A DNA stretch of 34,117 nt from an uncultured Bacteroidales bacterium. GTDB lineage: Bacteria > Bacteroidota > Bacteroidia > Bacteroidales > Paludibacteraceae. Numbering within the stretch: position 1 is the first letter of the stretch; the number at the start of each line of letters is the position of its first letter. The notes beneath the pieces are model-generated. The model saw only the letters and a list, made by a program, of their open reading frames with translations, ran no database searches and had not been told where the DNA came from. The DNA lies in assembly GCA_900317745.1 (NCBI GenBank), contig ONHW01000024.1, forward strand, positions 1 through 34,117, written 5' to 3'. This document shows, piece after piece, positions 302-24,543 of this stretch. The position numbers and the translations under genes were made by a program.

Positions 302-3300
302 CTAATGAATAATCCGGGCGTAGAGCACAGGCAGGATAGTCAGCGTGAGCGGCAAGGTGAAGATAGTGCCGAAGCAGATAACAACACCCATAGGCATCCA
401 GAGACTCGTATGCGCAATGATCATCGGCAGCACACCCAGCGCCGTGGTAGCCGAGGTGAGGAACACCGGTCGCATACGTCGGCGTCCCGCCTCGTAGGCA
501 GCCTCGCTGACACTGAGTCCGCGCGTATGGCGAAGCTCCTCGGCGTACTCGTACATCATGATGGCATTACGCACAATGATACCGATGAGCGACACCGTTC
601 CCAGCACAGCCGTGATGGATATATCCAAGCGGAACAGCCACAACCCTAACATCGCACCGAACAGACACAACGCCGAAGACGAGAGCGCCAGCATAGCCAG
701 GCGGATCCTGCCGAAGTGATAGAGCAGCAGCACGAACATCACCAGCAGCGCAGCCACCACGCTCCAGAGGATCTGCGGGACGATCATCCCGTTGATCTCA
801 CTCAGTCCGCCGAAACGGACGAGCAGAGCATCCGTCGGGTGCCGCTGACGGAAACCGTCGAGCCACCTGCTGACCGTACGCTCGGCTGCGACCTGCGAGG
901 TGGCACCCACCAGGTCGGCACCGATAGTGATGGTAGGCACGCCGTTGCGGTGCTCGATAGAGGCGTGATGCCAGGCAGGAACAATATCCGCCACCTGACG
1001 CAGAGGCACCCAGGTGCCTGTGGCGGTGGGGACGAGGAGGGAGTTGAGTGTTGAGTGTTGAGAGTTGAGGGTTTGAGAGTTTGAGGGTTTGAGCGTTGCT
1101 GTTTGAGCGTTGCTGTTTGAGGGTTGGAACGAGGAGCATAGCACAACGGGAGTGGGAGATGTGTTGCCGTGCTCGTAGATGTTGGTGATCGTCACACCGC
1201 GGGTGACGGACGCCAGATACAACGACAGCGACGCCTGCGTCACGCCCAGACGCGACGCCTCATCCGCCTTAAGCACTATACGGCTCTGCGAGGCTATATC
1301 ATCGTAATCGCTGTGCACCCACACCAGTTCGGGACGAGAAGCCATATACGCACGGATAGAGTCGATATACAGTTGCATCGTTGCCTCGTGCTCCCCGGCT
1401 TCGACGAACGGCGCGTACGCCAGACGTACCTCGAGCGGGTTCTTGACCACCTGGTAGTCGAGCTGCTTGAAGCGCACATACGCGTTCGGGAACCAGTGTT
1501 CGTAGCGCGGACCGAGTTCGCGCAGGAGTTCAGCCGTAGCCTGGTAGTCAGCCGTGCCGACCACGAACTGCGCATAGTTGGGTGCAGGCATAGCCGGCGT
1601 ATAGGTAGCATGGAAGCGCGGCGAGGAGTGTCCGACAAACGAGGTGACAGTCAGCACGCGGCTGTCAGCCACCAGCATACGCGCCAGGCTGTCAGCCAGA
1701 GCGGCGGTCTGATCGACAGTGGCACCCTGCGCCAGGTGGATCTCGACAGCAAACATCTCACGTTCGGCCTTCGGCAGGAGCTGCAGGTGCAGGCGGGTGA
1801 GGAAGAACACCCCCGAGCCCAACGCCGCAATCAGCAGACCATAGGTGAACCAGCGACGGCGGAAGCAGAACGACAGCAAGCGGTCGTACGAACGCTGCAG
1901 CCAGGTGAAGAACAGCTCCTGACCTTTCTCAAACCGTGTGGTACTCTCGCCACGGCGACGGATAAACTGCGTGGAGAGATAGGGTGTCATCCATGCGGCG
2001 TAGAAGATACTGGCACCCAGCGCAAACAGCACCGCGAACGGGAAGAGTTGCACAAACTCGCCCAGCGGACCGGTGATGATCTTGGTCATGGGGAAGAACA
2101 TACCCGCAATGGCGCAGGTAGCCAGACTCATCGGTACGAACAGTTGCCGCGTACTGACCGTAGCCGAGTACCAACGCGACCAACCTTGGTCCAGCAGGTT
2201 GGTATATCCGTCGATAACGATCACCGAGTCATCCACAATCATACCCAGCACAAAGATCAGTGCCGCCAGGGTGACCGTGTTCAGTTCGATACCGGTGAGG
2301 TACATCAGTCCGATACAGATGGCAATGCACACCGGCACGCCCGTACAAGCCACCAGCGCCGTACGCAGCGGGAAGAGCAGAAGCATCACGGCAATCACCA
2401 CAAGGATGGATATGAATATATCCCTGAGGAACGAGCGTACGCTGTCGTCCACAACCTTCGGCTGATCGGTGACGCGGTGCAGACGTATGTCGGGCGGAAA
2501 CTGCAAGGCAGCCTCATCGAGCACCTGCTGCACCGACTCGCCAAAGGCAACGATGTTGTTGCCGGGCTCCATCTCCATGCTTATTATAAGACCGGCTTCG
2601 CCTGACTGACCGCTGGCGCTGACAGAAGACAGACCGGCTTCGCCTGACAGACCGCTGGCGCTGACAGAAGACAGACCGGCTTCGCCTGACAGACCGCTGG
2701 CGCTGACAGAAGACAGACCGGCTTCGCCTGACTGACCGCTGGCGCTGACAGAAGAGAGACTGTTTTGCTCAGCGTTGTTGTAGCACATGACGAACTGTTC
2801 GGGCTTGGGCAGGCGGCGCTCGACAGTAGCTACATCCTGCAGCCTGAGCACGGCACCGGTGAGCGGGTCGGTGCGGATGATCTGGCGGGCTATCTCATAC
2901 TCGCTCGAGTACGGTATATCCACCCTGAGTTCGCCTGCCGACTCATCCTGTCCGCCTACCGTACGCAAGCCCTGCAACAGCAGTTGCGCCTGCAGGGCGG
3001 AAGGCGTGAGTCCGTAGGATGCCATACGCTGCAGGTCGAGCGTGACAACGATCTGTTCGCGCTGGCTGCCGAGGATCTTCAGTTTGCCCATCGCGTCAAT
3101 CTCGCTCAGTTGGCGTGTGAGCCGTTCGGCGTACGGCTGCAACTCCGTCACGCTGCGCTGGTTGCTCTCCACCGACAGCAGGATAGATGCCGTGTCGTCG
3201 CTGGTCATCAACTTGCGCATCTTTGCCCAGGTCTGATCCTTGGACGTGATGGAGTTGCGCAGCATGACATAGCAGTACACCACCCCATCCTCGGTGGTGG

Positions 3301-3559
3301 AGTATGTCATCTGCCGGTTAACCTCCTCATACGAATTGATGAACGCCTCAAGCGGCACAGTGACCTGCTGCTCCACCTCCTCTGCCGTTGCGCCCGGGTA
3401 GATAGCCGCCACTACAGCCTGACGGATAGTGAACTGCGGAAACTCATCCTTGCTCATCTGCGGCAGCGCCCAGATGCCGAATGCCATCAGCACTCCGAAC
3501 ACGAAGAAGATGATACCGTGGTTGCGCAGAGCGCCTTGTATATGATCGCGTTTGGACAT
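302..3559 (-). CDS. RND-family efflux permease (AcrB/CusA-like) carrying repeat insertions
   Basis: This is the inner-membrane proton-driven pump of a tripartite RND system, exporting drugs, metals or envelope compounds; the substrate cannot be read from sequence. At 1085 residues it has the expected length. It shows an N-terminal membrane segment, the porter opening (FPQFTIRQA, YPGATAEEVEQQVT), the TM4 proton-relay motif DDSVIVIDG near residue 445, and a second half repeating the fold (VPLRQVADI, then RNAIMMYEYAEE). Its start overlaps the stop of the fusion-protein gene by one base (TAATG), so translation is likely coupled. Two insertions are odd. Residues about 268-323 are four copies of a 14-residue repeat (LSSVSASGQSGEAG type). 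Residues about 811-840 are a Ser/Asn/Thr/Leu-rich run made by another interspersed repeat. Both fall in periplasmic loops, so the pump may still work. No TolC-like partner is in the window. Confidence 0.93.
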   Translation of the reverse strand: MSKRDHIQGALRNHGIIFFVFGVLMAFGIWALPQMSKDEFPQFTIRQAVVAAIYPGATAEEVEQQVTVPLEAFINSYEEVNRQMTYSTTEDGVVYCYVMLRNSITSKDQTWAKMRKLMTSDDTASILLSVESNQRSVTELQPYAERLTRQLSEIDAMGKLKILGSQREQIVVTLDLQRMASYGLTPSALQAQLLLQGLRTVGGQDESAGELRVDIPYSSEYEIARQIIRTDPLTGAVLRLQDVATVERRLPKPEQFVMCYNNAEQNSLSSVSASGQSGEAGLSSVSASGLSGEAGLSSVSASGLSGEAGLSSVSASGQSGEAGLIISMEMEPGNNIVAFGESVQQVLDEAALQFPPDIRLHRVTDQPKVVDDSVRSFLRDIFISILVVIAVMLLLFPLRTALVACTGVPVCIAICIGLMYLTGIELNTVTLAALIFVLGMIVDDSVIVIDGYTNLLDQGWSRWYSATVSTRQLFVPMSLATCAIAGMFFPMTKIITGPLGEFVQLFPFAVLFALGASIFYAAWMTPYLSTQFIRRRGESTTRFEKGQELFFTWLQRSYDRLLSFCFRRRWFTYGLLIAALGSGVFFLTRLHLQLLPKAEREMFAVEIHLAQGATVDQTAALADSLARMLVADSRVLTVTSFVGHSSPRFHATYTPAMPAPNYAQFVVGTADYQATAELLRELGPRYEHWFPNAYVRFKQLDYQVVKNPLEVRLAYAPFVEAGEHEATMQLYIDSIRAYMASRPELVWVHSDYDDIASQSRIVLKADEASRLGVTQASLSLYLASVTRGVTITNIYEHGNTSPTPVVLCSSFQPSNSNAQTATLKPSNSQTLNSQHSTLNSLLVPTATGTWVPLRQVADIVPAWHHASIEHRNGVPTITIGADLVGATSQVAAERTVSRWLDGFRQRHPTDALLVRFGGLSEINGMIVPQILWSVVAALLVMFVLLLYHFGRIRLAMLALSSSALCLFGAMLGLWLFRLDISITAVLGTVSLIGIIVRNAIMMYEYAEELRHTRGLSVSEAAYEAGRRRMRPVFLTSATTALGVLPMIIAHTSLWMPMGVVICFGTIFTLPLTLTILPVLYARIIH
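1041..1127 (-). repeat. Family A repeat (CTCAACACTCAA type) inside the RND gene
   Basis: A degenerate run of 7- to 9-base units, GTTGAGTGTTGAG on the plus strand. Read on the coding (minus) strand it is open in all three frames, giving Ser/Asn/Gln/Thr/Leu-rich peptide. It adds roughly 30 residues to a periplasmic loop of the pump. Confidence 0.9.
2591..2758 (-). repeat. Family F tandem repeat: four copies of 42 bp inside the RND gene
   Basis: Units begin at 2591, 2633, 2675 and 2717. Outer units read Gln and inner ones Leu at one codon, otherwise they are almost identical. Each 42-bp unit is itself two related 21-bp halves, each with a GACAGACCG core. Because 42 is divisible by three, copy number can change without a frameshift. 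The core AGACCGCTGGCGCTGACAGA also resembles units at 9255-9300 and in dxs. Confidence 0.95.
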
Positions 3560-5278: not shown

Positions 5279-5689
5279 CTACCAAACAAAACTAAAAAAA
5301 CGACCCACCGGAGTGAGTCGTTCGTTATAGAAAATCGTACAGATTAGTCGATCACTACGGGTTTGTACTTGGGCACAAGACGGTATGCGCTTGATAATAC
5401 CGGCATTGTTGACGAGTATATCTATCTGGCCAACCTCGGCGTGGATGCGATCCACCAGTGCCTTGACTGCCGATTCATCCGTTACGTCACAAACGTAGCC
5501 GTATGCGTTGTTTATTCCTGCCGCATGGTAGTCTGCCAGAGCCTTATCGATGGCTTCCTGACTACGGGCATTGAAGATAATATTACTGGCACCTGCCTGA
5601 GCAAATGCTTTGGCAATGGCGAAACCGATACCGTAGCATGCTCCGGTAACCCACGCATTCTTGCCTTCAAGAGAAAAAAGATTAGCCAT
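5279..5689 (-). pseudogene. Truncated SDR dehydrogenase (gluconate 5-dehydrogenase/KduD-like)
   Basis: The first ~97 codons are a clean N-terminal half of a classical short-chain dehydrogenase: NAD(P)-binding TGACYGIGFAIA, the Asp of CDVTDE, and NNAGIIKRIP. This closely resembles Bacteroidales gluconate/2-keto-3-deoxygluconate dehydrogenases of about 260 residues. After KRIP (near 5383) homology stops. The catalytic Ser/Tyr/Lys and the whole second half are missing, and the frame runs on through a transcription terminator, so it cannot make a working enzyme. Just after the junction a different frame reads RLVPKYKPVVID followed by a TAA at 5344-5346, which looks like the genuine end of another gene. 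An internal deletion fusing two gene ends explains this best. The -7 box upstream is intact. Confidence 0.8.
5294..5322 (-). terminator. Intrinsic terminator after the SDR remnant
   Basis: On the minus strand AACGACTCAC, loop TCCG and GTGGGTCGTT form a ten-pair stem (one G-T pair) followed by seven T. It sits after the TAA at 5344-5346, which supports the view that the real gene end is there and that the longer frame is an artefact. Confidence 0.85.
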
Positions 5690-5848: not shown

Positions 5849-7675
5849 TCAGAACTGGAAGTAGATGAACGGTTGCATGTCGGCGGAGATGAACTGGTAG
5901 GCGAGCAAGACTGCTACAGCGGCGGCGAGGATGATCAGCGGCAGCGGCATGGCGGCGAACCAAAGACGGTAGCGGCGCTTGAAGCGGTCGGGCAACCAGT
6001 GGATGATCATGCCGGCAACGAAGAGGAGCACGACGTACTTGTACTCCCGGATGAACGGCAGGATGATTGAATTATCCCACGCACAACCTATCTGATGCAC
6101 CATCTGCTTGGCTGTCTGCCATGCTTCGCGGCTGGCGGTTGCCGGGTCGAGGTTACTGGCAGAACGGAAGAACAGACGGGTGAAAGAGATGAATACGAAG
6201 GTCTGGAGAATCTCCCAAGCTTGGTCGATCCAACCAACGAAACGGTTGGTATCCGTACGGTAACCCCACAGCCAGCCTACATACCATATAGATGTACCCA
6301 CCCAGAGGATAAGCACCCATACCTCTACCATATTTACGAGCGCGTATGCATCGCGCGTGAGTTGGCGCGCCACAACCATAGCCACCGCCAGAGCTGTCAT
6401 CAGCACATACCGCCAATGCTCGCCCAAGGCACGCCAACACTTGTTGACAATCATTCCTACCCCGTTCAGTCCGCCCCAGATAACGAAGTTCCAACTCGCG
6501 CCGTGCCACAAGCCGCCGATGAGCATCGTGAGGAACGAGTTGAAGTTAGACGACAGCAGTTTGCTTGCCGGACGGCCGAACAAGGTGCGGTTGCCACCCA
6601 GAGGGATATATACATAGCCCTTCAGCCAGCGCGAGAGGGACTGATGCCAACGGCGCCAGAACTCCTGCGGGTTGCGGGACTTGTATGGCGAATCGAAGTT
6701 CTTGGGCAGATAGAATCCCATCAGCAGCGCTACGCCGATAGCAATATCCGTGTAACCCGAAAAGTCGGCGTACACCTGCATCGAATAGGTGAGCAGCGCA
6801 AAGAAGTTCTCAAAACCCGAGAACAACATCGGGCTCTGAAACACGCGGTCGATAAAGTTCACCGCCAGATAATCGGACAAAATGATCTTCTTCAGCAGAC
6901 CGTTGCATATCCAGAACACCGCTATGCCAAACTGCCGGCGGGTGAGGAAGAAAGGCTTGTACAACTGCGGCACAAACTCCGAGGCACGGACGATAGGACC
7001 GGCCACCAACTGCGGGAAGAACGATACATAGAACCCGAAATCCAGCAGATTACGCACCGGCGCAATCTTGCCGCGGTAGATATCCACCGCGTAGGAGATA
7101 ACCTGGAAGATATAGAACGATATACCTACCGGCAGGATGATCCTATCCACCAAGAATCGCCCGTCACGGCTGAAACCGTTACCTATGTACGCGAAGATAT
7201 CGAACACCTCGACCTGCGTGCCGAACACGTCGTTGAAGATGTTCGTGAAGAAATAGGCGTACTTGAAGTAGAACAGCAGCGACAGATCGACACACACACT
7301 CAGCGCGAGCCATAAAGACCCACCCCTACCCTCCCTCATAGGGAGGGACGAGTTAGCCTGTGCTGCGCTGCCATATCTCGCCTTGTAGATCTGCTGACCT
7401 ATCAGCCAATCGCTGAGCGTGATGAACGCCAGGATGAGCAGGAAGATACCCGAGGTCTTGTAGTAAAAGAACCACGATGCCGCCATCAGGTAGATGTTTC
7501 GCGCATGTAAGCGTGAAAGAGATGAGTGGCTTTTGACTCTCGACTTTCGACTTTCGACTATACTTCCCCACTGCATGATCAGCGTGAAGCCTGCATACAC
7601 TATAGCGAAGAACGCCCAGAAGTAGAACTGGGTGAACAGCAGCGGGTGCGTGGGGTCATATTTGAGAAAATCAAA
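5849..7675 (-). CDS. MBOAT-family membrane O-acyltransferase (AlgI-like)
   Basis: A polytopic inner-membrane enzyme that moves acetyl groups across the membrane for O-acetylation of an envelope or extracellular polymer, working with a periplasmic SGNH partner. Family landmarks are FPQLVAGPIVR, the RRWHQSLSRW segment near residue 344 and the active-site His in GLWHGASWNFVIWGG near residue 392. Length is about 608 residues, slightly long for AlgI/DltB relatives. The frame opens at a TTG at 7676-7678 only four codons after the SGNH stop and in the same frame; no ATG fits nearby. Two repeats interrupt the N-terminal part: family B gives ESRKSRVKSHS (about residue 40) and family C gives SSLPMREGRGGS (about residue 110-120). 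The acceptor polymer is unknown. Confidence 0.9.
   Translation of the reverse strand, partial: FDFLKYDPTHPLLFTQFYFWAFFAIVYAGFTLIMQWGSIVESRKSRVKSHSSLSRLHARNIYLMAASWFFYYKTSGIFLLILAFITLSDWLIGQQIYKARYGSAAQANSSLPMREGRGGSLWLALSVCVDLSLLFYFKYAYFFTNIFNDVFGTQVEVFDIFAYIGNGFSRDGRFLVDRIILPVGISFYIFQVISYAVDIYRGKIAPVRNLLDFGFYVSFFPQLVAGPIVRASEFVPQLYKPFFLTRRQFGIAVFWICNGLLKKIILSDYLAVNFIDRVFQSPMLFSGFENFFALLTYSMQVYADFSGYTDIAIGVALLMGFYLPKNFDSPYKSRNPQEFWRRWHQSLSRWLKGYVYIPLGGNRTLFGRPASKLLSSNFNSFLTMLIGGLWHGASWNFVIWGGLNGVGMIVNKCWRALGEHWRYVLMTALAVAMVVARQLTRDAYALVNMVEVWVLILWVGTSIWYVGWLWGYRTDTNRFVGWIDQAWEILQTFVFISFTRLFFRSASNLDPATASREAWQTAKQMVHQIGCAWDNSIILPFIREYKYVVLLFVAGMIIHWLPDRFKRRYRLWFAAMPLPLIILAAAVAVLLAYQFISADMQPFIYFQF
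7318..7350 (-). repeat. Family C palindromic GC-rich repeat inside MBOAT gene
   Basis: Core CCCTCCCTATGAGGGAGGG on the coding strand is an inverted repeat followed by TAGGGGTGGG. It is read in frame as SSLPMREGRGGS between two membrane segments. Confidence 0.85.
7531..7562 (-). repeat. Family B repeat (GTCGAAAGTC type) inside MBOAT gene
   Basis: Coding strand carries GTCGAAAGTCGAAAGTCGAG, translated VESRKSRVKS. It is the same repeat as at 7779-7811 and 16221-16263. Confidence 0.85.
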
Positions 7676-7722: not shown

Positions 7723-9244
7723 GGGTTACTGTGTCTTGGGGTTCGGCTGTCATTTTCGCGCTTTCGGGCGCACCCGACCTTTCGACTATCGACTTTTGAC
7801 TTTCGACTATAGTGTCATAATCTTCCAGCAGTTGCTTGGCAAGCATCTCGCCTACTTTCTTCGCTCCGGCACGCGTGAAGTGGATCATATCTTCGCCGGC
7901 AAGTCCCTTGTCGCGCCAACTGAACATACTGCCTGCCCCGCCCATCAGCCGGAACAACGAGTAGTATGCACCACCCTGCTCCGTCACCATGGCTGCCAGC
8001 GCCTGATCCAGATACGGCAACATTGGGTACGACATCTGCTCGCCCTCCACCGTGGTGATCATATCCGACGGACCGATGAACAACAGCGACGCCTCACCCG
8101 CAGCCGACATCAGGTAGCGGATCTGCTGGCGCATTGACTCTACATATTTCTCCACCGCCGCACGCGAACGTATGGAAGGCATAGCATTGCCTCCGAACTG
8201 CATGATAACCAGTGCTGTATGCGTATTGCGGAAATAAGCGGCAAAATGATCGCGGGACATTGCGGTGAAGTTCGTGCCGGCAGCACCGCGCATAGGTATA
8301 TTATCCACCTGCACACCCGTAGCCGTCTCCAGAGATATGCCATACACGTATCCCTTGCCACCCATCTGCAGGGTTGTGCTGCGCTGGGGCGTTGCCAATA
8401 CAATCATCTCCTGCCTCATAGGTTCGGCGGAAGGTGTTGAATCGTTGAGCGGGGCACCTGTCACGCGTCGCGACTGCTCCAGCGAGTCCGGCACGAGACG
8501 AACAGTCACGCTGTCGGAGCAGAGTACACGTATCCGGTCGTAATCGTATGTCGGCACACGGTCGCGCAGCAACTCAATCTGTACATCCACCGGCTCAACC
8601 ACCTGCGCTACCTGCGCCATAGGACCATAAGCATTACTACCCTTCAGGCGCATGGACGAAGGGCCGTACGACAGGTAACGGCGAACAAACGTGTACGGCA
8701 ATTCGCGACCGTCCTGTTCTATGCTCTGCTTGGCGGTATAGGTCGGGATAGTCTGCACCATAGGCAGCAGACCTATACCTCCGCCGCCGAAACGATCCTG
8801 CAGCCTGCGGCGCAGAATCATGGATATGCGGTCTTCCTCAATCTGCGAATCGCCGTAGTGCACAATGCGCACCGAACGCTTTGCCGAGGTCTGCAGGGCT
8901 GCATAGAACGCAGGAAGATGTAACTTGGTCTGTGGCAGGGATTGTGGCAACTCCACCGGCTTGGGTGCAGCTACAGGTGCTGCCACGGTGTCGGAGGGAG
9001 CAGGAGTGCCCGTTGTATCTGACGCGACAGCAACAGCCGTCGAGTCAGCAGTAACCGAACCTTCGGCAACAACATATTCGGCTCCGAACGTGCTATCGGC
9101 AGCACAGGTTGCAGCCGGCAGTCCGAGCACGGATGCCAACGTTGGTACACGCATCACTGTACTTCTGCCGGCAAACACAGCGCACACCGCCCCAAGGACG
9201 ATGAACGTACTGAGTATGCAGAGTAGTATCTGGTGCGGTTTCAT
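7691..9244 (-). CDS. Periplasmic SGNH/GDSL hydrolase-like acetyltransferase partner
   Basis: A 517-residue protein with an N-terminal signal anchor (ILLCILSTFIVLGAVCAVFAG), a low-complexity Thr/Ala/Val/Pro linker to about residue 100, then an SGNH fold: block I GDSQIEEDR near residue 131, a GGN block (MQFGGNAMP) near 350, and the catalytic DMIH at about 451-454. Such proteins, encoded next to MBOAT acyltransferases, complete O-acetyl transfer onto, or remove acetyl from, an envelope polysaccharide, as in the AlgI/AlgJ/AlgX and PatA/PatB systems. The C-terminal ~35 residues (from TIVESQKSIVERS to NDQINRK) come from family B and D repeats, beyond the hydrolase core. It lies 60 bases after trkH and directly before MBOAT. 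Confidence 0.88.
   Translation of the reverse strand: MKPHQILLCILSTFIVLGAVCAVFAGRSTVMRVPTLASVLGLPAATCAADSTFGAEYVVAEGSVTADSTAVAVASDTTGTPAPSDTVAAPVAAPKPVELPQSLPQTKLHLPAFYAALQTSAKRSVRIVHYGDSQIEEDRISMILRRRLQDRFGGGGIGLLPMVQTIPTYTAKQSIEQDGRELPYTFVRRYLSYGPSSMRLKGSNAYGPMAQVAQVVEPVDVQIELLRDRVPTYDYDRIRVLCSDSVTVRLVPDSLEQSRRVTGAPLNDSTPSAEPMRQEMIVLATPQRSTTLQMGGKGYVYGISLETATGVQVDNIPMRGAAGTNFTAMSRDHFAAYFRNTHTALVIMQFGGNAMPSIRSRAAVEKYVESMRQQIRYLMSAAGEASLLFIGPSDMITTVEGEQMSYPMLPYLDQALAAMVTEQGGAYYSLFRLMGGAGSMFSWRDKGLAGEDMIHFTRAGAKKVGEMLAKQLLEDYDTIVESQKSIVERSGAPESAKMTAEPQDTVTPYPNDQINRK
7779..7811 (-). repeat. Family B repeat inside the SGNH gene end
   Basis: Coding strand GTCGAAAGTCAAAAGTCGAT gives VESQKSIVE in frame. 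It follows the last conserved helix of the hydrolase, where an extension is harmless. Confidence 0.85.
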
Positions 9245-9254
9245 TGATTGTCTT

Positions 9255-9300
9255 TCTTCTTTCAGCGCAGCGGTCTATCTTCTTTCAGCGCAGCGGTCTA
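9255..9300 (-). repeat. Family F: two tandem 23-bp units between trkH and SGNH
   Basis: Two perfect copies (9255-9277 and 9278-9300) of a 23-bp unit containing TCTTTCAGCGCAGCGGTCTA. The 23-bp period and the sequence match the pair inside dxs (12643-12688), and the reverse complement AGACCGCTGCGCTGA matches the RND array. Confidence 0.9.
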
Positions 9301-9304
9301 TTCT

Positions 9305-12178: not shown

Positions 12179-12189
12179 AATTTATTTTG

Positions 12190-12301
12190 TTTAGTGTTTA
12201 GAGTTTAGTGTTTAGAGTAGTTGAAAAGTTTAGAGTTTATAGTAAACTTACAACTTCTAACTCATAACTTCTCTCAACGCTCAACACTCAACTCTCAACT
12301 T
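12190..12301 (-). repeat. Family A repeats filling the dxs-trkA gap
   Basis: The gap begins with a TTTAGTGTTTAGAGTTTAG variant (12190-12240) and ends with CTCAACGCTCAACACTCAAC (12272-12300). The dxs stop codon at 12281-12283 lies inside the second block, so the residues KLRVEC at the Dxs C-terminus are encoded by repeat sequence read in the stop-containing orientation. Confidence 0.85.
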
Positions 12302-14242
12302 TATCAATGATTCCGCTATCCCTTCGGCATCGAGATGCAACATGTGCATCAGTTCAGCCGTACTGCCGTGGGTTACGAACCGGTCGTCCACACCCAGACG
12401 TACCACGCGCACCTTGCGGGTATCTATAGTCTCCAGAACCGCGCTACCCAAGCCGCCGCTGATCATTCCGTCCTCCACCGTAACGATTGTATCGTAGTTC
12501 TCCGCCACGGCGCAGACCGTTTCGGTATCCAGCGGTTTGAGCCAACGCATGTTGTAATGCCCTACTCCGCCCAGTTCGTTGCGGGAGTTGAGCGCCTCTT
12601 CCACCGTGTTGCCTATGGCGCCGATAGAAAGAACGCACACTCGTCTTTGCTCTTTCTGTGAAACGGTCTTTGCTCTTTCAGTGAAACGGTCTCTCAAGCA
12701 CACCGCCTTGCCGCACTCTACCGGCGGCAACTCGCGATCCTTGCTCCTGCCACGCGGATAGCGGATGGCTATCGGACCTTCCATATCAACCGCCATTGCC
12801 ATCATTTGCCGAAGATCGGTTGCGGTCATAGGTGCGGCGATACGTATGTTGGGTATAGGACGCAGATACGCCAGATCCAGCAGACCGTGATGCGTCGCTC
12901 CATCGTTGCCCACTATACCGGCACGATCGATACAGAACACCACGTGCATCTTGCCTATCGCTACGTCGTGGATTATATTGTCGTACGCCCGTTGCAGGAA
13001 CGATGAATAGATATTGCAGAACGGCACCGCACCCTCTTTTGCCAAACCGGCGCTGAACGTCACGGCGTGCCCCTCGGCTATACCGACGTCGAACACGCGC
13101 TCGGGCAACTGCTTCTGCATGATGGTCATAGAGCAGCCGGAGGGCATTGCTGGTGTAACACCCATTATACGCTTGTCTTGCTCCGCCAGCTCGAGCAAGG
13201 TCTGCCCGAACACCTCCTGCCACAGCGGAGAGGTGGGAGTTGAGGGTTGGGAGTTGAGAGATTGCTTGTCTGCAAACCGCTCGCCCGTCTCCACGTCAAA
13301 CTCGCCCGGAGCATGCCAAACAGTCTGGTCGGCCTCGGCGGGCGCATAACCCTTGCCTTTCTGCGTAACGATATGCAGCACCTTCGGACCTTTGTAGTTC
13401 TTGATCTCGCTCAGTATGCGCACCAGCCCGATAACATCGTGCCCGTCTGCAGGACCGAAGTAGCGGATATTCAAGCCCTGGAAGATATTATTGGGCTGCT
13501 TGGTAAGAGTAGTCTTGAGGTTGTTGTTGAACCGCAGCAGTTTGGCGCGTTTGTGGTCGGACATAAGGTGCAACTTCACCAACGCCTGATATCCCCACCA
13601 GCGCAGTTTGTTGTACCGCGGCGAGGTGGTCAGATCCACCAGGTACTGCGTGAACCCGCCCTTGATAGGGTCGATGGCCATGTTGTTGTCGTTCAGCACG
13701 ATCAGCAGGTCGTTCTTATCCATCGAGGCGTTGTTCAGTCCCTCGAACGCCAGACCGCCTGTCATCGCTCCATCGCCAATCACGGCAACCACCTTCCGCC
13801 GCCTGCCGGCAGACGAACCTTCTGCACCCGATTCGGGCAGCAGACTGTCAGCCACCTGCATTCCTAACGCTACGGATATACTGTTGCTTGCGTGACCCGA
13901 TACGCACGTGTCGTACTCGCTCTCGGCGGGTGTGGGGAATGGTGCCAAACCGCCGAACTGACGGTTGGTGTGGAACGCGTCGCGACGACCGGTCAATATC
14001 TTGTGGGCGTAAGCCTGGTGACCTACATCCCACACCAGACGGTCGTACGGCGTGTCGAACACATAGTGTAACGCCACGGTCAACTCTATCACACCCAGCG
14101 ACGAACCTAGATGACCGGGGTTATGACTGAGCTCGCTCACGATAAAATCGCGCAACTCGGCGCACACCTCAGGCAACGCCTCACGAGGCAACGCCTTCAG
14201 GTCAGATGGGGAATTTATGGTATTCAAATATCGGTAATCCAT
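12281..14242 (-). CDS. dxs: 1-deoxy-D-xylulose-5-phosphate synthase
   Basis: The thiamine-diphosphate enzyme that condenses pyruvate and glyceraldehyde 3-phosphate, the first step of the MEP isoprenoid pathway; ispG of the same pathway is also in this window. TPP binding is shown by GDGAMTGGLAFEGLNN from about residue 154 with downstream LNDNNMAID. Also conserved are HNPGHLGSSLG near the N-terminus, DVGIAEGHAVTFSAGLA, and the transketolase C-domain. At 653 residues it is about 20-30 longer than usual. The excess comes from repeats at about 327-337 (family A, SLNSQPSTPTS) and 518-534 (family F, DRFTERAKTVSQKEQ), plus a repeat-encoded C-terminus. It heads the dxs-trkA-trkH-SGNH-MBOAT series and has a strong promoter. 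Confidence 0.96.
   Translation of the reverse strand: MDYRYLNTINSPSDLKALPREALPEVCAELRDFIVSELSHNPGHLGSSLGVIELTVALHYVFDTPYDRLVWDVGHQAYAHKILTGRRDAFHTNRQFGGLAPFPTPAESEYDTCVSGHASNSISVALGMQVADSLLPESGAEGSSAGRRRKVVAVIGDGAMTGGLAFEGLNNASMDKNDLLIVLNDNNMAIDPIKGGFTQYLVDLTTSPRYNKLRWWGYQALVKLHLMSDHKRAKLLRFNNNLKTTLTKQPNNIFQGLNIRYFGPADGHDVIGLVRILSEIKNYKGPKVLHIVTQKGKGYAPAEADQTVWHAPGEFDVETGERFADKQSLNSQPSTPTSPLWQEVFGQTLLELAEQDKRIMGVTPAMPSGCSMTIMQKQLPERVFDVGIAEGHAVTFSAGLAKEGAVPFCNIYSSFLQRAYDNIIHDVAIGKMHVVFCIDRAGIVGNDGATHHGLLDLAYLRPIPNIRIAAPMTATDLRQMMAMAVDMEGPIAIRYPRGRSKDRELPPVECGKAVCLRDRFTERAKTVSQKEQRRVCVLSIGAIGNTVEEALNSRNELGGVGHYNMRWLKPLDTETVCAVAENYDTIVTVEDGMISGGLGSAVLETIDTRKVRVVRLGVDDRFVTHGSTAELMHMLHLDAEGIAESLIKLRVEC
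12643..12690 (-). repeat. Family F: two tandem 23-bp units inside dxs
   Basis: Units at 12643-12665 and 12666-12688 differ at one position (GCTCTTTCTGTGAAACG versus GCTCTTTCAGTGAAACG). They share the 23-bp period and the GGTCT-N4-TCTTTCAG core with the pair at 9255-9300. In frame they encode a basic loop between conserved dxs segments. Confidence 0.88.
13234..13262 (-). repeat. Family A repeat inside dxs
   Basis: Coding strand CTCAACTCCCAACCCTCAAC, read SLNSQPSTP, sits between the N-terminal TPP domain and the pyrimidine-binding domain, i.e. in an interdomain linker. Confidence 0.88.
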
Positions 14243-14371: not shown

Positions 14372-14439
14372 AAAAACGTTCCGTTCCATCGGGGTTTTAT
14401 CGAGGGAATATCGGGGGAATATCGAGGGAATATCGATAG
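14372..14439. repeat. Family G element, copy 1: anchor plus four 11-bp iterons
   Basis: An anchor containing CGTTCCGTTCCATCGGGG ends at 14394. After 3 nt, TATCG repeats start at 14398, 14409, 14420 and 14431, an exact 11-bp period (TATCGAGGGAA, TATCGGGGGAA, TATCGAGGGAA, then TATCGATAG). A second copy with the same anchor, gap and period is at 32378-32447. It lies between the dxs promoter and the small-RNA unit. No open frame accounts for it. Confidence 0.9.
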
Positions 14440-14465
14440 TGTTCAAATTATTTATCGGTATATAC

Positions 14466-16220: not shown

Positions 16221-16263
16221 TAGTCGAAAGTCAATAGTCGAAAGTCGAAAGTCAATAGTCAAT
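16221..16263 (-). repeat. Family B repeat, intergenic
   Basis: Plus strand AGTCGAAAGTCAATAGTCGA repeated with 7- to 8-base spacing; same units as the in-gene copies at 7531 and 7779. It abuts a family A block. Confidence 0.85.
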
Positions 16264-16327
16264 CGCTCAACACTCAACTCTCAACGCTCTACTCCCTTCC
16301 CTTTAGGGAGGGGCCGGGGGTAGGCTT
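16264..16327 (-). repeat. Family A then family C repeats, intergenic
   Basis: CGCTCAACACTCAACTCTC (16264-16290) is followed by CCCTTCCCTTTAGGGAGGGG and GCCGGGGGTAGG (16291-16323). The A-then-C order and the sequence recur at 16682-16800 with only small changes. Confidence 0.88.
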
Positions 16328-16684: not shown

Positions 16685-16800
16685 TAAACACTAAACACTC
16701 AACACTAAACACTCAACATTAAACTCTCAACCCTCAACATTAAACATTAAACACTCAACACTCTACTCCCTTCCCTTTAGGGAGGGGCTGGGGGTAGGCC
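16682..16800 (-). repeat. Family A and C repeats between ispG and HMA gene, extending into ispG
   Basis: A long family A run with alternating ACTCAACACTAAACACT and CATTAAACATTAAAC units (16682-16767) is followed by CCCTTCCCTTTAGGGAGGGG CTGGGGGTAGG (16768-16798). The last part is read as the C-terminus of IspG (RPTPSPSLKGRE) and provides its TAG stop. Confidence 0.88.
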
Positions 16801-18229
16801 TTTCCCCCTCAATAAACTCTATCAACTCCCTTACCGCCTGCTCCTGCGGGATATTCATGCGGATACAGGTCTTGCCTTTGTACAGGCTTACCTTGCCTCG
16901 TGCTGCGCCTACGTAGCCGTAATCGGCATCCGCCATCTCGCCCGGTCCGTTCACTATGCAGCCCATCACGCCTATCTTCAGCGTGCGCAGGTACGGGTGC
17001 TCTTTCTCCGCCTCGCGGAACGCCGCCTTGATAGCGGCTATCGTCTCCTCCAACCCGAAGAGTGTACGCCCGCAACCCGGGCAGGACACAAACTCCGTCT
17101 TGTAACGCATCACGCCTGCCGCCTGCAGTATATCTTTGCCCAGGCGCTCCAGCTCCTCGGCGCCGAAGTGCGGGTTGTGCAGTTCAATCTGCTTGGCATC
17201 GTTCGCCCATAACAGTCGTCCGCATTCAGCCGCAGCATGCAGGGCGAACAGACCCCAATCGCTTACCTCGGAGGCGTAGCACACCACTCCGCCCTTCACC
17301 TCGCATGTCGCGCAGGTGTATCGCGCCGATTGCGGGTCGGCAAAGTAGTCGCGCAACGCGCGTGCCACAGGTATCTCCGCCTCGGGTGCCTCGGATAGCG
17401 ACACACGTATCGTATCGCCTATACCCTCGGCGAGCAGCGCGCCTATGCCTACGGCAGACTTCACACGACCGTCCTCGCCCTCGCCGGCTTCCGTCACACC
17501 CAGGTGCAGCGGAAACGCCATCTGCTCCTTATCCATCTGCTTCACCAGCAGACGCACCGTATCGACCATCACGCGCGTGTTCGACGCTTTGATCGAGATC
17601 ACTATATCCGTGAACTGCTCGCTCACCGCCACACGCAGAAACTCCATCACGCTCTCCACCATCCCTGCCGGCGTATCGCCGTAGCGCGACATGATCCGGT
17701 CACTCAGACTGCCGTGGTTCACGCCCAGACGTACTGCAGTATGGTGCTCGCGGCATATTGCCAGAAATGCCGTAAATCGCTCGCGTAACCGCTGAAGCTC
17801 GGCGGCGTACTCTTCGTCGGTATAGTCGATATGCTTGAACTTGCGCGCGGGATCGATATAGTTTCCCGGATTCACACGCACTTTCTCCACCACCTTCGCA
17901 GCTTCGTCCGCCACGTTCGCCTGAAAATGTACATCCGCCACCAGCGGCATACTTCCCCTCCCCTCCGAGAGGGGAGCCGGAGGGGTGTCTTGCGCGAGCA
18001 GCGCGTGTATCTGCTTGAGGCTTTCCACCTCGCGCACGCCCTGCGTGGTGAACCGCAATAGTTCGGCACCTGCCTCGCGGCAACGCAACGCCTGCGCCAC
18101 ACTGCCCTCGATATCGTTGGTCGAGGTGTTTGCCATCGTTTGAATTCGGATGGGGTAATCACTACCTATATCCAGTTTCCCGACGTGTGTTGTACTTGTC
18201 TTTCGACGTGTATAGTTTGCAAAATCCAT
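16763..18229 (-). CDS. ispG: 4-hydroxy-3-methylbut-2-enyl-diphosphate synthase
   Basis: IspG (GcpE) is the [4Fe-4S] enzyme converting MEcPP to HMBPP in the MEP pathway. Its TIM-barrel part carries the N-terminus MDFANYTRRKTSTTHVG and PIRIQTMANTSTNDI. The Fe-S domain carries CPGCGRTLF and GCIVNGPGEMADADYG. I start it at 18229 because Bacteroidota IspG proteins begin with this MDxxNYxRR pattern; an ATG eight codons earlier is possible. A family C repeat adds TPPAPLSEGRGS at about residues 80-95, before PLVADVHF, and another adds the C-terminal RPTPSPSLKGRE. At about 488 residues it is shorter than many Bacteroidota homologues, which have an extra central domain. Confidence 0.94.
   Translation of the reverse strand: MDFANYTRRKTSTTHVGKLDIGSDYPIRIQTMANTSTNDIEGSVAQALRCREAGAELLRFTTQGVREVESLKQIHALLAQDTPPAPLSEGRGSMPLVADVHFQANVADEAAKVVEKVRVNPGNYIDPARKFKHIDYTDEEYAAELQRLRERFTAFLAICREHHTAVRLGVNHGSLSDRIMSRYGDTPAGMVESVMEFLRVAVSEQFTDIVISIKASNTRVMVDTVRLLVKQMDKEQMAFPLHLGVTEAGEGEDGRVKSAVGIGALLAEGIGDTIRVSLSEAPEAEIPVARALRDYFADPQSARYTCATCEVKGGVVCYASEVSDWGLFALHAAAECGRLLWANDAKQIELHNPHFGAEELERLGKDILQAAGVMRYKTEFVSCPGCGRTLFGLEETIAAIKAAFREAEKEHPYLRTLKIGVMGCIVNGPGEMADADYGYVGAARGKVSLYKGKTCIRMNIPQEQAVRELIEFIEGERPTPSPSLKGRE
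17945..17990 (-). repeat. Family C repeat inside ispG
   Basis: Coding strand CACCCCTCCGGCTCCCCTCT then CGGAGGGGAGGGG. The palindromic core CCCCTC-N-GAGGGG and flank CCGGAGGGGTG are shared with the copy in leuS (23617-23652). Confidence 0.9.
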
Positions 18230-18512: not shown

Positions 18513-18514
18513 CG

Positions 18515-20644: not shown

Positions 20645-21604
20645 TTATCTCACTTGTTTTAATATATCTTCTGCATCAATCCCGAGCAACGAAACCGCCG
20701 ATAGTTTCTGTCCCATGTCTTTGAGCGAATGACCGCAATGATAAACGCTGTCATCCGCTATCAGCCATCGGTCGTGCGATGCATTGCGCCAGACAAACGT
20801 CTCAATCGGTTCCACATCGGTCTTGGCATTGTGCAAGTTGCGAAGACTGTTCAAATCCTTGCCGGAATAGATAGTGGCTTTAACGCCCTTAGCACGGACA
20901 TCCAGCATCTCAAACGTAGCCGCATCCACGTACGCGTCAATGATAATAACGCGCTTCTGCGCTGTCTTGATAATACGTTCCAGTAGCGCACGCGCCTCGA
21001 AGAACTGACCATTGTAGAATACCTGCTCCATCGGCGGTAAACTCGTTCGCACGAAGAAATCTACTTTGTTTTGTAACTCGTGTATCTGGTATGTATGCTC
21101 TTGCAACTTGCGGTCGATACGGTCTTCTATTGCTATCAGCCGTTGGTTGACTGCATGGCCGCGAAGTACATACTCCTTCAATATTCTATTTGCCCAGCGA
21201 CGAAATTCTATACCTCTGCTGCTTTTAACACGATAACCCACCGAAAGAATGACATCCAAACTATAGTATTCCACTTGATACACCTTTCCGTCAGCGGCAG
21301 TTGTCGCAAATTTTGCGACAACTTGATTTTGCTCTTCGTGGGGAACTGCGTTTTTTGCACTAATCCGAGTAGGTTTTTGAGTTGTCGCATTTTTTGCGCC
21401 AACTGGAGCAACTGTCGCATTTTTTGCGATAGTTGGAGCCAATTCCTCGCGTAAAGCATTGTTGATGTGTTTGCCGATGGTCTTGACATCGCGGTCAAAC
21501 AGCAGAGCCATCTGGTTACGATTGAGCCAAACGGTTTCATCCTGCACGCGCACCTCCAACTGGAACTGCTCATTAGGCTGATATAGAACTATCTCGTTTG
21601 CCAT
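20645..21604 (-). CDS. RhuM-like protein with palindromic repeat expansion
   Basis: 319 residues. The N-terminal half is RhuM-like: WLNRNQMALLFDRDVKTIGKHINN, a helix-turn-helix-type segment, then VAKFATTAADGKVYQVEYYSLDVILSVGYRVKSSRG and FRRWANRILKEYVLRGHAVNQ. The C-terminal half (VIIIDAYVDAATFEMLD, HDRWLIADDSVYHCGHSLKDMG) looks like a phospholipase-D-type half with a single HxR/K-like strand. RhuM proteins occur in pathogenicity islands and defence-rich loci; their biochemical role is not settled. Between the two RhuM parts, residues about 55-102 contain extra AKNAT copies encoded by palindromic DNA units. It starts 3 bases after the leuS stop, so it is cotranscribed with leuS. Confidence 0.82.
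   Translation of the reverse strand: MANEIVLYQPNEQFQLEVRVQDETVWLNRNQMALLFDRDVKTIGKHINNALREELAPTIAKNATVAPVGAKNATTQKPTRISAKNAVPHEEQNQVVAKFATTAADGKVYQVEYYSLDVILSVGYRVKSSRGIEFRRWANRILKEYVLRGHAVNQRLIAIEDRIDRKLQEHTYQIHELQNKVDFFVRTSLPPMEQVFYNGQFFEARALLERIIKTAQKRVIIIDAYVDAATFEMLDVRAKGVKATIYSGKDLNSLRNLHNAKTDVEPIETFVWRNASHDRWLIADDSVYHCGHSLKDMGQKLSAVSLLGIDAEDILKQVR
21300..21435 (-). repeat. Palindromic units expanded inside the RhuM-like gene
   Basis: Strong units at 21300-21322 (GTTGTCGCAAA/TTTGCGACAAC), 21380-21404 and 21409-21435 (AACTGTCGCA/TGCGATAGTT), with a degenerate one near 21345-21358. Each encodes a variant of AK(F/N)AT. Confidence 0.85.
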
Positions 21605-21607
21605 TCT

Positions 21608-24481
21608 TTACATCACTACATTGACAATCCTGCCGGGGACGACGATCACCTTCTTCGGGGCGTTGCCGGCGAGGTAACGGGCGGTGTCTTCGTGAGCAAG
21701 AACGAGCTTCTCCACTTCGTCCTTCGGCGTGTCTTTCGGGCACTCCAAGGTGAAACGTACCTTGCCGTTGAACTGTACGGGGTACTTCTGCGTATCCTCA
21801 ACCAGATAGGCTTCGTTCAGTTCGGGCCATTGGGCGTCGATGACGAATGAGTTGAGCGTTGAGGGTTGAGCGTTAAGGGAGTGGCAGCGATGGTACATCT
21901 CTTCGGCGATATGCGGAGCGTACGGCGCAAGCAGTATGGCAAACGGCTCAAGGATAGCACGTTTGTTGCACTTGAGGGCTGCCAGTTCGCTCTGGGCAAT
22001 CATGAACGCCGGGATAGAGGTGTTGAACGAGAAGTTCTCGATATCCCACGTGATCTTCTTGATGAGCTTGTGCAGGCTCTTGAACTCCTCTTTCGTCGGC
22101 TGCTCGTCGGTAACGGTCTCGTACATGTTCCACGCCTTCTTCAGGAAACGGTGTACTCCATCTATGCCGTTGGTGTCCCAAGGTTTGGACATCTCCAGCG
22201 GGCCGAGGAACATCTCATACAGGCGCAAGGTGTCCGCGCCGTAGTTGGCAATCACATCGTCGGGGTTGACCACGTTGAACATCGACTTCGACATCTTCTC
22301 CACCGCCCAACCGCAGATATACTGCTTGGGCATAGCAGCACCGAGATACGGGTTGTCCTCAACCTCCGAGCTGGTGCCATCGGCAAAGACGAACGTGGCG
22401 TTCTTGAACTCAGGCATCCAGTTGCGGAAAGCCGTTATGTCGAGTACGTCGTTGTGCACGATGTTCACATCCACGTGGATAGGCTGCACTTTGTCCTTGT
22501 ACTCGGGGTTATTGATCAGGTTGTAGGATACGTACAGGTTACCCGTAGCGCCCTCGCCGATGTAACGATAGACGAAGTTCGAGCGACCCTGGATCATTCC
22601 CTGGTTGATGAGTTTGCGGAACGGTTCGTCCTTGCAAACGAGCCCGAGGTCGAAGAGGAACTTGTTCCAGAACCGGCTGTAGATCAGGTGTCCAGTGGCG
22701 TGCTCCGAGCCGCCGAGGTAGAGGTCAACCTGCTGCCAGTAGTCGTTAGCCTGTCGGCTCACCAGAGCCTCGTTGTTGTGCGGATCCATGTAGCGCAGGT
22801 AGTATGCACTCGAGCCCGCGAAGCCCGGCATGGTGCAGAGCTCAAGCGGATAAACCGACTTATTGTCAATCAGTTTCTTATCGACCACTTTCTTGTTCTT
22901 CTCGTCCCACGCCCATACCTGTGCGTGCCCGAGCGGCGGTTCGCCGGTAGCGGTAGGTTTGAACTCCGTCACGGCAGGCAACTCCAGCGGCAGGCAATCC
23001 TCGGGGATAGGATAAGGCATACCATCCTTGTAATAGATCGGGAACGGTTCGCCCCAGTACCGCTGACGCGAGAAGATAGCGTCACGCAGGCGGTAGTTGA
23101 CGGTCACGCGGCCTATGCCGGTGTTGGTGATGTACTCCTTCATCTTGGCGATAGCGTCCTTCACGTCCAAGCCGTTCAGGAAGCCGGAGTTCATCATCTT
23201 GCCCTCCTTGGCATCAAAACTCTGCTCGCTGACATCCGCACCTTCGATCAGCGGGATGATAGGCAGGTTGAAGTGCTTGGCAAACGCATAGTCGCGGCTG
23301 TCGTGTGCGGGCACGGCCATGATCGCACCTGTGCCGTAGCCGGCGAGGACGTAGTCGGAGATATAGATAGGGATCTCGGCATTCGTGAGCGGATTGATAG
23401 CATACGAGCCGGAGAACACGCCCGTAACCTTGCGGTCGGCTATACGCTCACGCTCTGTACGGTGTTTGACCCATGCCAGGTACTGCTCGACCTCGGCACG
23501 CTGCTCGTCGGTAGTCAGTCGCCCGACATACTCGCTCTCCGGCGCCAGCACCATGAACGTCACGCCGAACACGGTGTCGGCACGCGTGGTGAAGATCGTG
23601 ATGGGAGCCTCGCTCTCACTCTCCCCTTTGAGAGGGGAGCCGGAGGGGTGTTTTTTGATGTCGAACTGCATCTCCGCACCCTCGGAGCGGCCTATCCAGT
23701 TACGCTGCGTATCCTTGAGCGAGTCGGTCCAATCCAGGCGGTCGAGCCCCTCCAGCAGACGCGGAGCGTAGGCGCTCACGCGCAGACACCACTGGCGCAT
23801 CACACGTTGCTCAACAGGATAACCTCCGCGAACCGACAGACCCTCGCTGACCTCGTCGTTGGCGAGCACCGTACCAAGTTCGGGGCACCAGTTGACCTTG
23901 GTATCCGCCAGATAAGCGATACGGTACTGCATCAGGCGCTCCTGCTGCTCACGCTCGGAGAGTGTTGCCCAGGTCGGGTCCTCGCGCTCAAAGCGTGCAA
24001 CGAGTTCGGAGATAGGTTTGGCTTTCTGCGCAACATTGTCGTAGTAATGGTTGAACATCTGGATGAATGCCCACTGTGTCCAGTGGTAGAACTGAGGATC
24101 GCAGGTCTTGACAGAACGGCTCCAATCGTAGCAGAAACCGATCTTACGGAGCTGGCTGATGTATCGCTCGATGTTCTTGTTCGTTGTTACTTCGGGGTGC
24201 TGACCGGTCTGAATAGCATACTGCTCCGCCGGCAGGCCATAGGCGTCGAAGCCCATGGGGTGCAGTACGTTGAAGCCGCACTGGCGTTTGTACCGGCTGT
24301 AGATATCCGAGGCGATATAGCCCAGCGGATGGCCCACGTGCAGACCGGCACCCGAAGGATAAGGGAACATGTCCAGCACATAGTAGTGCGGTTTGTCAGA
24401 CTCATTACTTACAGCATAAGCATTGGCATCGTTCCACGCCTTTTGCCATTTTTGCTCAATGTCGCTAAAGTTGTATTCCAT
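21608..24481 (-). CDS. leuS: Leucyl-tRNA synthetase
   Basis: Class I aminoacyl-tRNA synthetase charging tRNA-Leu, 957 residues. The HIGH motif is HVGH at 48-51 ([16 protein letters not shown]), the CP1 editing domain shows [15 protein letters not shown] and [19 protein letters not shown], and the KMSKS loop ([10 protein letters not shown]) is near residue 732. The C-terminal anticodon-binding domain includes the conserved VQFNGKVRF. Two repeats interrupt it: family C at about 277-289 ([13 protein letters not shown]) on the edge of the editing domain, and family A at about 868-878 ([10 protein letters not shown]) in a C-terminal loop. Both are surface positions where length varies. The leader contains a family D repeat. 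It is followed with almost no gap by the RhuM-like gene. Confidence 0.97.
21849..21878 (-). repeat. Family A repeat inside leuS
   Basis: Coding strand CTTAACGCTCAACCCTCAAC, translated [11 protein letters not shown], in the anticodon-binding domain. Same orientation relative to the gene as the copies inside the RND gene and dxs, i.e. the stop-free strand. Confidence 0.9.
23617..23652 (-). repeat. Family C repeat inside leuS
   Basis: Coding strand CACCCCTCCGGCTCCCCTCT then CAAAGGGGAGAG, read [11 protein letters not shown]. It shares CCCCTCCGGCTCCCCTCTC with the copy in ispG. Confidence 0.9.
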
Positions 24482-24484
24482 ATA

Positions 24485-24543
24485 GTTAAATTTACGATTT
24501 ACACATTTACAATGTACGATTTATTTACGATTTGGTCATTGGA
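24485..24543 (-). repeat. Family D repeat in the leuS leader
   Basis: Plus-strand TTTACGATTTACACATTTAC and TTATTTACGATTTGGTCATT. The second part matches the SGNH-MBOAT junction (7691-7715) closely. It occupies nearly the whole leader between promoter and leuS ATG. Confidence 0.85.

Follow-up and report, generated by a model that had tools for sequence, protein, structure and literature searches.

In this work we have examined a window of 34,117 bases (contig 22, bases 1-34117) of G000, a Bacteroidales genome of 2.6 Mb and 95.6% completeness, in which short dispersed repeats lie both between genes and, in frame, inside genes for conserved proteins, some of them probably essential. By Dxs, the closest named genome is the Paludibacteraceae metagenome-assembled genome (MAG) RGIG3829 (JAFTHS01), at 68%. 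A sequence-only reading of this DNA had described some 20 interspersed repeat loci in at least five families, and about 19 of them were recovered in place by repeat finding, Tandem Repeats Finder (TRF) and direct reading: 11 heptamer arrays, five GC-rich hairpins, a 42-nt tandem and 23-nt tandems. The loci are real, but the division into five families did not hold. Families A (CTCAACN), B (AGTCGAA) and D (ATTTACG) have a common architecture, a degenerate 7-nt unit with a 7-base period, and form one heptamer class; C is a class of hairpins like the repetitive extragenic palindromic (REP) sequences, reading CTACTCCCTTCCCTTTAGGGAGGGGCYGGGGGTAGGC or, in variant C2, CTCCCCTYYGAGAGGGGAGCCGGAGGGGTG; and F is a longer minisatellite with a 42-nt unit and 23-nt relatives. 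The window has 11 period-7 arrays, whereas 200 second-order Markov sequences contained 0.135 on average and never more than 1.

Six genes of the window, coding for an RND pump, an MBOAT protein, an SGNH-type protein, Dxs, IspG and LeuS, contain repeats in frame. We compared their products with orthologues of the same genus (29 each for LeuS, IspG and RND, 16/20 for MBOAT and 17/20 for SGNH, with 13 relatives displayed per site for IspG, RND, MBOAT and SGNH; the Dxs alignment has 30 rows for 29 distinct relatives, L031 and L162 being one assembly), and a site was called a loop where the orthologues vary in length. In the RND pump gene, an A array that includes drifted TTTGAGN units (1041..1126, minus strand) encodes approximately residues 809-839 (SSFQPSNSNAQTATLKPSNSQTLNSQHSTLNSL) and makes the protein 20 residues longer than 29 of 29 orthologues, while the family F tandem (2589..2760, minus strand, 4.1 copies of 42 nt, coding for LSSVSASGQSGEAG repeats) adds 49-59 residues against the same set. 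The inserts of the MBOAT protein read NSSLPMREGRGG and SIVESRKSRVKS; a B array (7530..7559, minus strand) encodes the latter, and a REP-like hairpin coding for NSSLPMREGRGGS (7319..7348, minus strand) is an insertion relative to the 13 relatives displayed. Another B array (7779..7808, minus strand) codes for the tail of the SGNH-type protein, a C-terminal extension reading TIVESQKSIVER. IspG has an TPPAPLSEGRGSM insert at a C2 hairpin (17958..17991, plus strand), and its last residues (RPTPSPSLKGRE) are coded by a C hairpin that overlaps the 3' end of the gene (16763..16799, plus strand). The first insert of LeuS, coded by a C2 hairpin (23621..23654, plus strand), makes the gene 36 nt longer than in 28 of 29 orthologues, from which it is absent; at the second, coded by an A array (21851..21879, minus strand), 26 of 29 orthologues have four residues in the corresponding columns, three of these with extra residues nearby. 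In dxs, an A array (13228..13260, minus strand) forms the inter-domain linker SLNSQPSTPTS, for which the sister genome G120 has a diverged array and nearly every species among the 29 relatives a sequence of its own, and a 23-nt tandem (12643..12692, minus strand, 2.2 copies of RFTERAKTVSQKEQ) lies at a site that is shorter in G120 and in the other rows displayed.

These alignments bear out the earlier claim that the inserts in the six genes keep the frame and fall in loops, linkers or termini, sites that vary in length, and the orthologues that lack them speak against the inserts being ordinary family sequence. Whether each insert is exactly the repeat had been proposed as a check. The inserted peptides are repeat-encoded for the most part, yet not exactly, and the adjoining native loop residues often differ too, so that what we call insertion is partly loop replacement; at the IspG, MBOAT and SGNH sites some relatives also have other extra residues of their own. 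On this comparison, the inserts in LeuS, IspG, RND, MBOAT and SGNH, like the linker of Dxs, represent insertions or loop replacements specific to the lineage. In the G000 genome, LeuS and IspG each give one full match and Dxs one match, and the three proteins contain HVGH and KMSKS (LeuS), GDGAMTGG (Dxs) and CPGCGR and CIVNGPGE (IspG), which we take to be their signature motifs. As single copies with these motifs in place, LeuS, Dxs and IspG are very probably functional despite the inserts. In-frame insertion into loops of single-copy enzymes is observed here, and tolerance of such insertion in many genes, by which Rickettsia palindromic elements are recognized, is seen in this genome as well. 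The same loops recur as targets: by reading, B arrays, REP-like hairpins or nothing repetitive are found in the two loops of Dxs and the loop of IspG depending on the species, other species have arrays of GGTTACG, AAGGCGA, TCAGGAW, AACGACT or TTTACGA there, and family F occurs in the first Dxs loop of G138.

The remaining loci of the window lie between genes or at their ends. A variant A array (CTAAACN, 12188..12218, minus strand) lies about 10 nt upstream of the start of the TrkA-like gene, and an A array (12271..12300, plus strand) lies at the dxs 3' end in the dxs-trkA spacer. On the plus strand, an intergenic B array (16221..16263) is followed by an A array (16266..16294) that runs into a C hairpin (16289..16325, CTACTCCCTTCCCTTTAGGGAGGGGCCGGGGGTAGGC), and an intergenic A array of 11 units (16687..16762) runs into the hairpin at 16763. 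A D array (24490..24523, plus strand) directly precedes the start codon of leuS. An F-related 23-nt tandem (9250..9301, plus strand, 2.3 copies of TCTTCTTTCAGCGCAGCGGTC) separates the TrkH-like gene from the SGNH-type gene, and 13-mers related to it occur up to 29 times in the G000 sample described below. The family F sequence AGACCGGCTTCGCCTGAC, allowing at most one mismatch, has 21 matches in G000, four of them at 2589..2760, and is found in 24 of 61 genus genomes; its backward control gave none.

To what extent are these repeats a property of the whole genome? Our G000 sample of 750,781 bp consists of long contig stretches and the window; the contigs are those with lengths or coordinates from earlier matches, so that a mild bias towards repeat-bearing sequence is possible. 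TRF reported 338 arrays, of which 105 have a period of 7, 14, 21 or 28, against 2/23 and 2/29 in two Markov controls. The suspicion that the motifs might be no commoner in the genome than expected is thereby answered, and the proposal that the repeats are genome-wide holds. A consensus filter, which removes among others 21-base coding repeats, reduces the 105 arrays to 95 (11 in the window). With open reading frames (ORFs) called by a simple greedy rule, some of them possibly spurious, 39 of the 95 (41%) lie inside ORFs of at least 150 aa, the definition used for arrays and hairpins alike, and 56 outside, in sequence of which more than 90% was called coding; so low a share within genes is the pattern that removal of harmful insertions would leave. 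Extrapolated to the whole genome, this corresponds to approximately 330 arrays and 135 array-bearing ORFs. Intergenic arrays often have one end about 25 nt or less from a start or stop codon, a position that short spacers partly force upon them. Arrays in spacers between co-directional genes show no strand preference (8 sense, 10 antisense), and for this reason we dropped the idea that the C-rich, G-free CTCAACN arrays are Rho-utilisation sites. Three successive CTCAACN units have 34+54 exact overlapping matches in G000, compared with 0+2 for the backward pattern, a control that for words with T at the free position partly matches the array itself (G044, G083).

The units are degenerate in an orderly way. 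Among 115 arrays there are 50 distinct consensus words, with units varying at set positions. A 7-nt unit in tandem at many loci beyond chance is found, as in TAACTGA-like repeats, but the genome does not keep to a single word or a small number of invariant ones. A-type units follow the grammar [CT]T[CA]AAC[N] in 47 arrays and 218 units (G000 including extra stretches) against 5 arrays in reversed sequence, some of the fixed positions coming from the search pattern. The pattern TNNACNN fits 67 of 109 arrays, compared with a mean of 24.5 and a maximum of 34 in position-permuted controls, a fit probably carried largely by A and B. Adjacent A units agree slightly more than shuffled ones (67 vs 57 for the free base, and 117 vs 102); units two apart agree more clearly in that base (60 vs 41, with a shuffle maximum of 60), which points to slippage by 14 nt. 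Copy-and-paste of whole arrays was considered and rejected: between A arrays there is a slight excess of common unit order (runs of four units shared by 3 pairs vs 0.8, runs of three by 21 vs 14), and pairs sharing nothing number 404 vs 185 in shuffles.

In all the G000 sequence examined, REP-like hairpins gave 31 matches (one window site being counted on both strands); the sample holds 25, against 3 in its reversed control, and 15 of the 31 lie inside ORFs. As in the REP superfamily, these are short GC-rich stem-loops with tens of dispersed copies, and the sequence does fold, though its folding energy is clear of shuffles in only one of four strands (z -2.5; the others -0.66 to -1.6). They lack the 5' GTAG or CGTC tag of that superfamily: type C reads CTAC, hairpin, GTAG on both strands, with GTAG on the 3' side, and C2 has by reading neither tag. 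Ten of the 31 are no more than 25 bp away from an array of period 7. Arrays and hairpins that adjoin do so on the same strand, for within 45 nt of hairpins there are 48 YTMAAC units on the hairpin strand, surrounding 14 of the 31, and one on the other, where the genome average predicts 2.9 per strand. We considered a composite mobile element of array and hairpin and ruled it out, as the hairpins adjoin arrays of several words (CTCAAC type, AAAATTG, AAAAGTG, AATACTG).

Comparison with other genomes showed how quickly the words change. Period-7 arrays occur at 19.1 per 100 kb in 20 dxs-side stretches from 20 other genus genomes and at 17.0 per 100 kb in 20 stretches of G120, whereas 79 distant dxs-side loci (Dxs identity at most 59%) have 5.0 per 100 kb, patchily distributed. 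Of the 120 family genomes, 13 contain the A word, one of them being G000. RGGTTAC in 2.5 copies, with at most one mismatch, gives zero matches in 34 of 61 genus genomes, G000 and G120 among them, and 27-89 overlapping matches in G122, G125, G134, G138, G142, G147, G150, G157 and G161. G150 has 89, and G138 (32) and G161 (27) have RGGTTAC in the Dxs linker as well; the same word genome-wide and in the linker indicates that the loops draw on the pool of words of their genome. For the pair G131 and G145, with 84.8% identity, 14 of the 17 arrays were mappable and occupy 13 sites: at one, both species have the same word at different lengths; at another, the second species has a short seed of related sequence; at two, the species have arrays that differ in word; and nine have no array in the other species. 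Seven of the nine empty alleles were tested, and none of the seven contained units beyond chance. In the stretches of the closer pair G050 and G133 (96.3% identical), no period-7 array remained after the filter. Between G000 and G120, one array that lies in a called ORF shares its core but differs in word (CAGCAGT vs CAGAWRT), and at one site G000 has a hairpin where G120 has an array; the dxs-trkA spacer array, on the other hand, is nearly unchanged save for a 49-nt gap, being 95% identical where its neighbours are 70-89%. Many loci share a word within one genome, the words are specific to genomes, and arrays are present in one close species and absent from the next. Genome-specific words at many loci, together with empty sites in close species, show dispersal.

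Outside the genus, Mucilaginibacter has heptamer arrays as inverted pairs approximately 10 to 450 bp apart, like the arms of a hairpin or of a miniature inverted-repeat transposable element (L089 8900-9060, 9795-9900, 16360-16580 and 20030-20210; also L083 and L097). CTCAACN arrays also occur in at least 120 stretches of a viral collection, the IMG/VR contigs (L354-L433, e.g. L374, L417, L408, L370). The 80 IMG/VR loci, which were chosen for their A match and some of which share a contig, average 41.9 period-7 arrays per 100 kb. All four viral contigs tested encode a terminase, a tape-measure-like or a head protein, and 4 of 10 proteins matched a phage family, which indicates that phages or prophages carry heptamer arrays.

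How could the same words come to occupy so many sites? Our preferred explanation, to which we give a probability of about 0.55, is that dispersed short repeats are copied by a process coupled to replication, grow by slippage and are kept where they do no harm. According to this model, there would be two main builds of non-coding origin, degenerate heptamer arrays, whose units come from a limited, genome-specific set of words, and REP-like GC-rich hairpins, besides a few minisatellites (F). Pieces of arrays would be copied to new chromosomal sites, most likely at replication forks, where single-stranded DNA could anneal or templates be switched over very short homologies. The arrays would then lengthen or shorten by slippage of 7, 14 or 21 nt, and the copies that survive would be those in spacers beside start or stop codons and those in frame in protein loops, inter-domain linkers and termini, where they may be neutral for the host. 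Several findings weigh against this explanation. No enzyme or intermediate was identified. Copying of whole arrays is not seen and unit order is scarcely common between sites; neighbouring units are only slightly more alike than shuffled ones. Copying together with random mutation would give a less regular A grammar than the one seen; this regularity, in part an effect of the search pattern, might reflect selection. The near identity of the dxs-trkA spacer array amid less similar neighbours hints at constraint, one array (L248 13032) resembles local growth from a seed, and the fixed polarity of arrays and hairpins might come from a specific enzyme and not from forks. Perhaps the repeats act in a more concerted manner, current heptamer words being copied into or over arrays at hundreds of sites, rewriting the loops of essential enzymes as species diverge and drawing in phages; we consider this tentative and well short of an even chance.

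We favour fork-coupled copying over short homologies with slippage, and its main rival is the action of a tyrosine transposase of the RAYT (REP-associated tyrosine transposase) type, an HUH (Y1) enzyme, which would mobilise hairpins together with the adjoining heptamer arrays. The fixed strand polarity of array and hairpin would suit such an enzyme, and G000 has four RAYT-like matches, three of which were read as proteins of approximately 355-382 aa, while 40 of 61 genus genomes have up to six matches each, some of them fragments. The two proteins tested match NCBIfam REP_Tyr_transpos (NF047646) with E values of 5e-7 and 6e-9, but at 29.7 and 35.9 bits they stay below its curated cut-off of 80, as they do for Pfam Y1_Tnp (20.1 and 19.8, cut-off 23). 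At the loci in question (L111 1192-2295, L112, L113 1243-2391), the C-terminal part of the two tested proteins has no Pfam or NCBIfam match. The association of hairpin and gene that marks the GTAG class of REPs was not found: no hairpin of the G000 type, from which those of other species may differ, lies within about 1.5 kb on either side of 18 of 18 RAYT-like loci (3 in G000, 15 in relatives), and the flanks of the three G000 loci, again about 1.5 kb, contain no period-7 array, although two hairpins lie approximately 3 kb from one of them. When genomes are pooled, those with a RAYT-like match have 18.1 arrays per 100 kb and those without 6.5, G120 alone contributing 66 of the 168 arrays; compared genome by genome, the difference does not reach significance (Mann-Whitney p 0.06 with all genomes, 0.23 with those at least 80% complete), and G133, with no match, has 9 arrays in 82 kb. 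Only the 10 hairpins already mentioned adjoin arrays, most arrays have no hairpin, and GTAG is absent from the 5' foot of the hairpin on both strands. We therefore regard a RAYT-type origin as unlikely, though it deserves to be kept in view.

Could the arrays simply have grown where they stand, by local replication slippage from chance seeds with 7 nt as a preferred length? Heptamers are over-represented in many bacteria, for which a polymerase-footprint idea is quoted in PMC4679880, and both the similarity at a lag of 14 nt and the partial seed at L248 13032 fit such growth. Against it stand words repeated at dozens of sites in one genome and at none in the next, the seven empty alleles without seeds, and the arrays of different words at one site in close species, so that slippage by itself appears improbable. 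We judge it equally improbable that the arrays are selected, either as tandem binding sites acting in regulation, on the nucleoid or at the RNA level, or as useful variation of protein surfaces. The consistent unit grammar with its fixed and free positions, the many intergenic arrays abutting start or stop codons, the conserved dxs-trkA spacer array and the recurrence in the same Dxs and IspG loops would all be expected of selection. However, presence is mostly not kept, 9 of the 13 sites having no array in the other of two close species, the spacer arrays have no strand preference, short spacers partly force arrays beside genes, and words that differ by genome leave no common binding site. 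The earlier suggestion of a protein-remodelling repeat system stands in so far as the repeats are genome-wide and in frame; dedicated machinery and purpose are not established, and the remodelling of loops looks like tolerated debris and not like a demonstrated function. Error-prone templated repeat addition resembles the nearly independent, position-specific variation of the units, but synthesis of degenerate heptamers by a reverse transcriptase or telomerase-like enzyme was rejected as very improbable, because RVT_1 occurs in 15 of 61 genus genomes and none was found in the array-rich G000 at its 95.6% completeness. That the repeats are ordinary family sequence, chance or an assembly artefact is scarcely credible, even with a MAG as the nearest named relative, in view of the Markov controls for arrays, the reversed control for hairpins, the orthologues without inserts, and arrays in records not labelled as MAGs (Mucilaginibacter OK098, OK268, SG564).

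In cyanobacteria, dispersed heptamer arrays between aligned ORFs are known as short tandemly repeated repetitive sequences (STRRs). The heptameric G-rich simple sequence repeats of Xanthomonas and Nostoc (PMC4692102) are likewise dispersed arrays between aligned ORFs, but they form G-quadruplexes and are under-represented in coding sequence, whereas ours are mostly not G-rich and 41% of them lie in ORFs. MacGregor (PMC4679880) described dispersed arrays of the heptamer TAACTGA in Beggiatoaceae, cyanobacteria and some Bacteroidetes, a few of them inside ORFs, and stated that "no mechanism is evident"; G000 itself has a TCAGTTA/TCAGTAA array (C12 14778). Those repeats resemble ours: they too are tandem arrays of 7-nt units scattered over many loci, frequently just before start codons and in some cases in ORFs. 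They are described as consisting of a single word, and their in-ORF cases are mainly peripheral; here the words are many and form genome-specific pools, the units are degenerate, 39 of the 95 G000 arrays lie in ORFs, and loops of conserved enzymes in several species contain insertions. In-frame intragenic REPs were found across phyla in many species, with loops and linkers suggested as their sites (PMC3733652), and the GTAG/CGTC REPs described there, including Rickettsia RPE-4/6, share with our hairpins the dispersed GC-rich form, the in-frame position in housekeeping genes and possible neutrality in loops and linkers. Ours differ from them in having no tag in the defining place and in adjoining heptamer arrays with one strand polarity, and unlike Rickettsia palindromic elements the heptamer arrays are plainly non-palindromic. 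REP inserts inside transposase genes of subclass 2.4, abundant in Cyanobacteria and Bacteroidetes, are reported in PMC6006769; like the RAYT/TnpA-REP subclasses 2.4 and 2.6 of Bacteroidetes treated there, the genus has Y1 HUH-type proteins, but the two tested fall below curated cut-offs and the 18 loci inspected have no hairpin of the G000 type.

The statement of the sequence-only reading that no counterpart had been described was thus too strong, as in-frame intragenic REPs and heptamer repeats have each been published (PMC3733652 and PMC4679880). What appear to be new here are the scale, the genome-specific words and the remodelling of loops. Our literature search, which most subscription journals and preprints lay beyond, did not find degenerate heptamer arrays in protein loops of Bacteroidales, and this is weak evidence of absence; nor do the consulted passages of the papers cited above report such arrays, with words particular to a genome, supplying loops of conserved enzymes. 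If our explanation is right, it would show that conserved enzymes throughout a bacterial genus can be steadily supplied with new stretches of peptide by non-coding mini-repeats, and exonised repeats would have a counterpart in bacteria. As close species differ at many sites, the spread of heptanucleotide repeats can be tested directly by comparison and in culture. Caution is also advisable in annotating the proteins of these bacteria, where segments such as 'SLNSQLSTLNS', 'ESRKSKVES' and 'PLxEGRG' may be repeat inserts and not domains.

Other repeats were noticed in passing. In the window, a leader AAAAACGTTCCGTTCCATCGGGG occurs twice (14372-14445 and 32378-32451), each time followed by an array with an 11-nt period (TATCGAGGGAA and TTATCGAGCCA), and arrays of period 10 and 11 are in excess in G000 (35 and 37, against 8 and 1 in the first Markov control and 3 and 6 in the second). 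A RhuM-family gene contains three copies of a 27-nt segment like GTCGCATTTTTTGCG that code for AKNAT-like peptides (21302-21439), and in a Fic-like gene a 12-nt unit ACTTGCGGGGGT, repeated three to four times (24860-24913), codes for an STPA linker. Lastly, the ORF of an SDR-type reductase (5279-5689) ends at 136 aa and looks, by eye, like a truncated gene.

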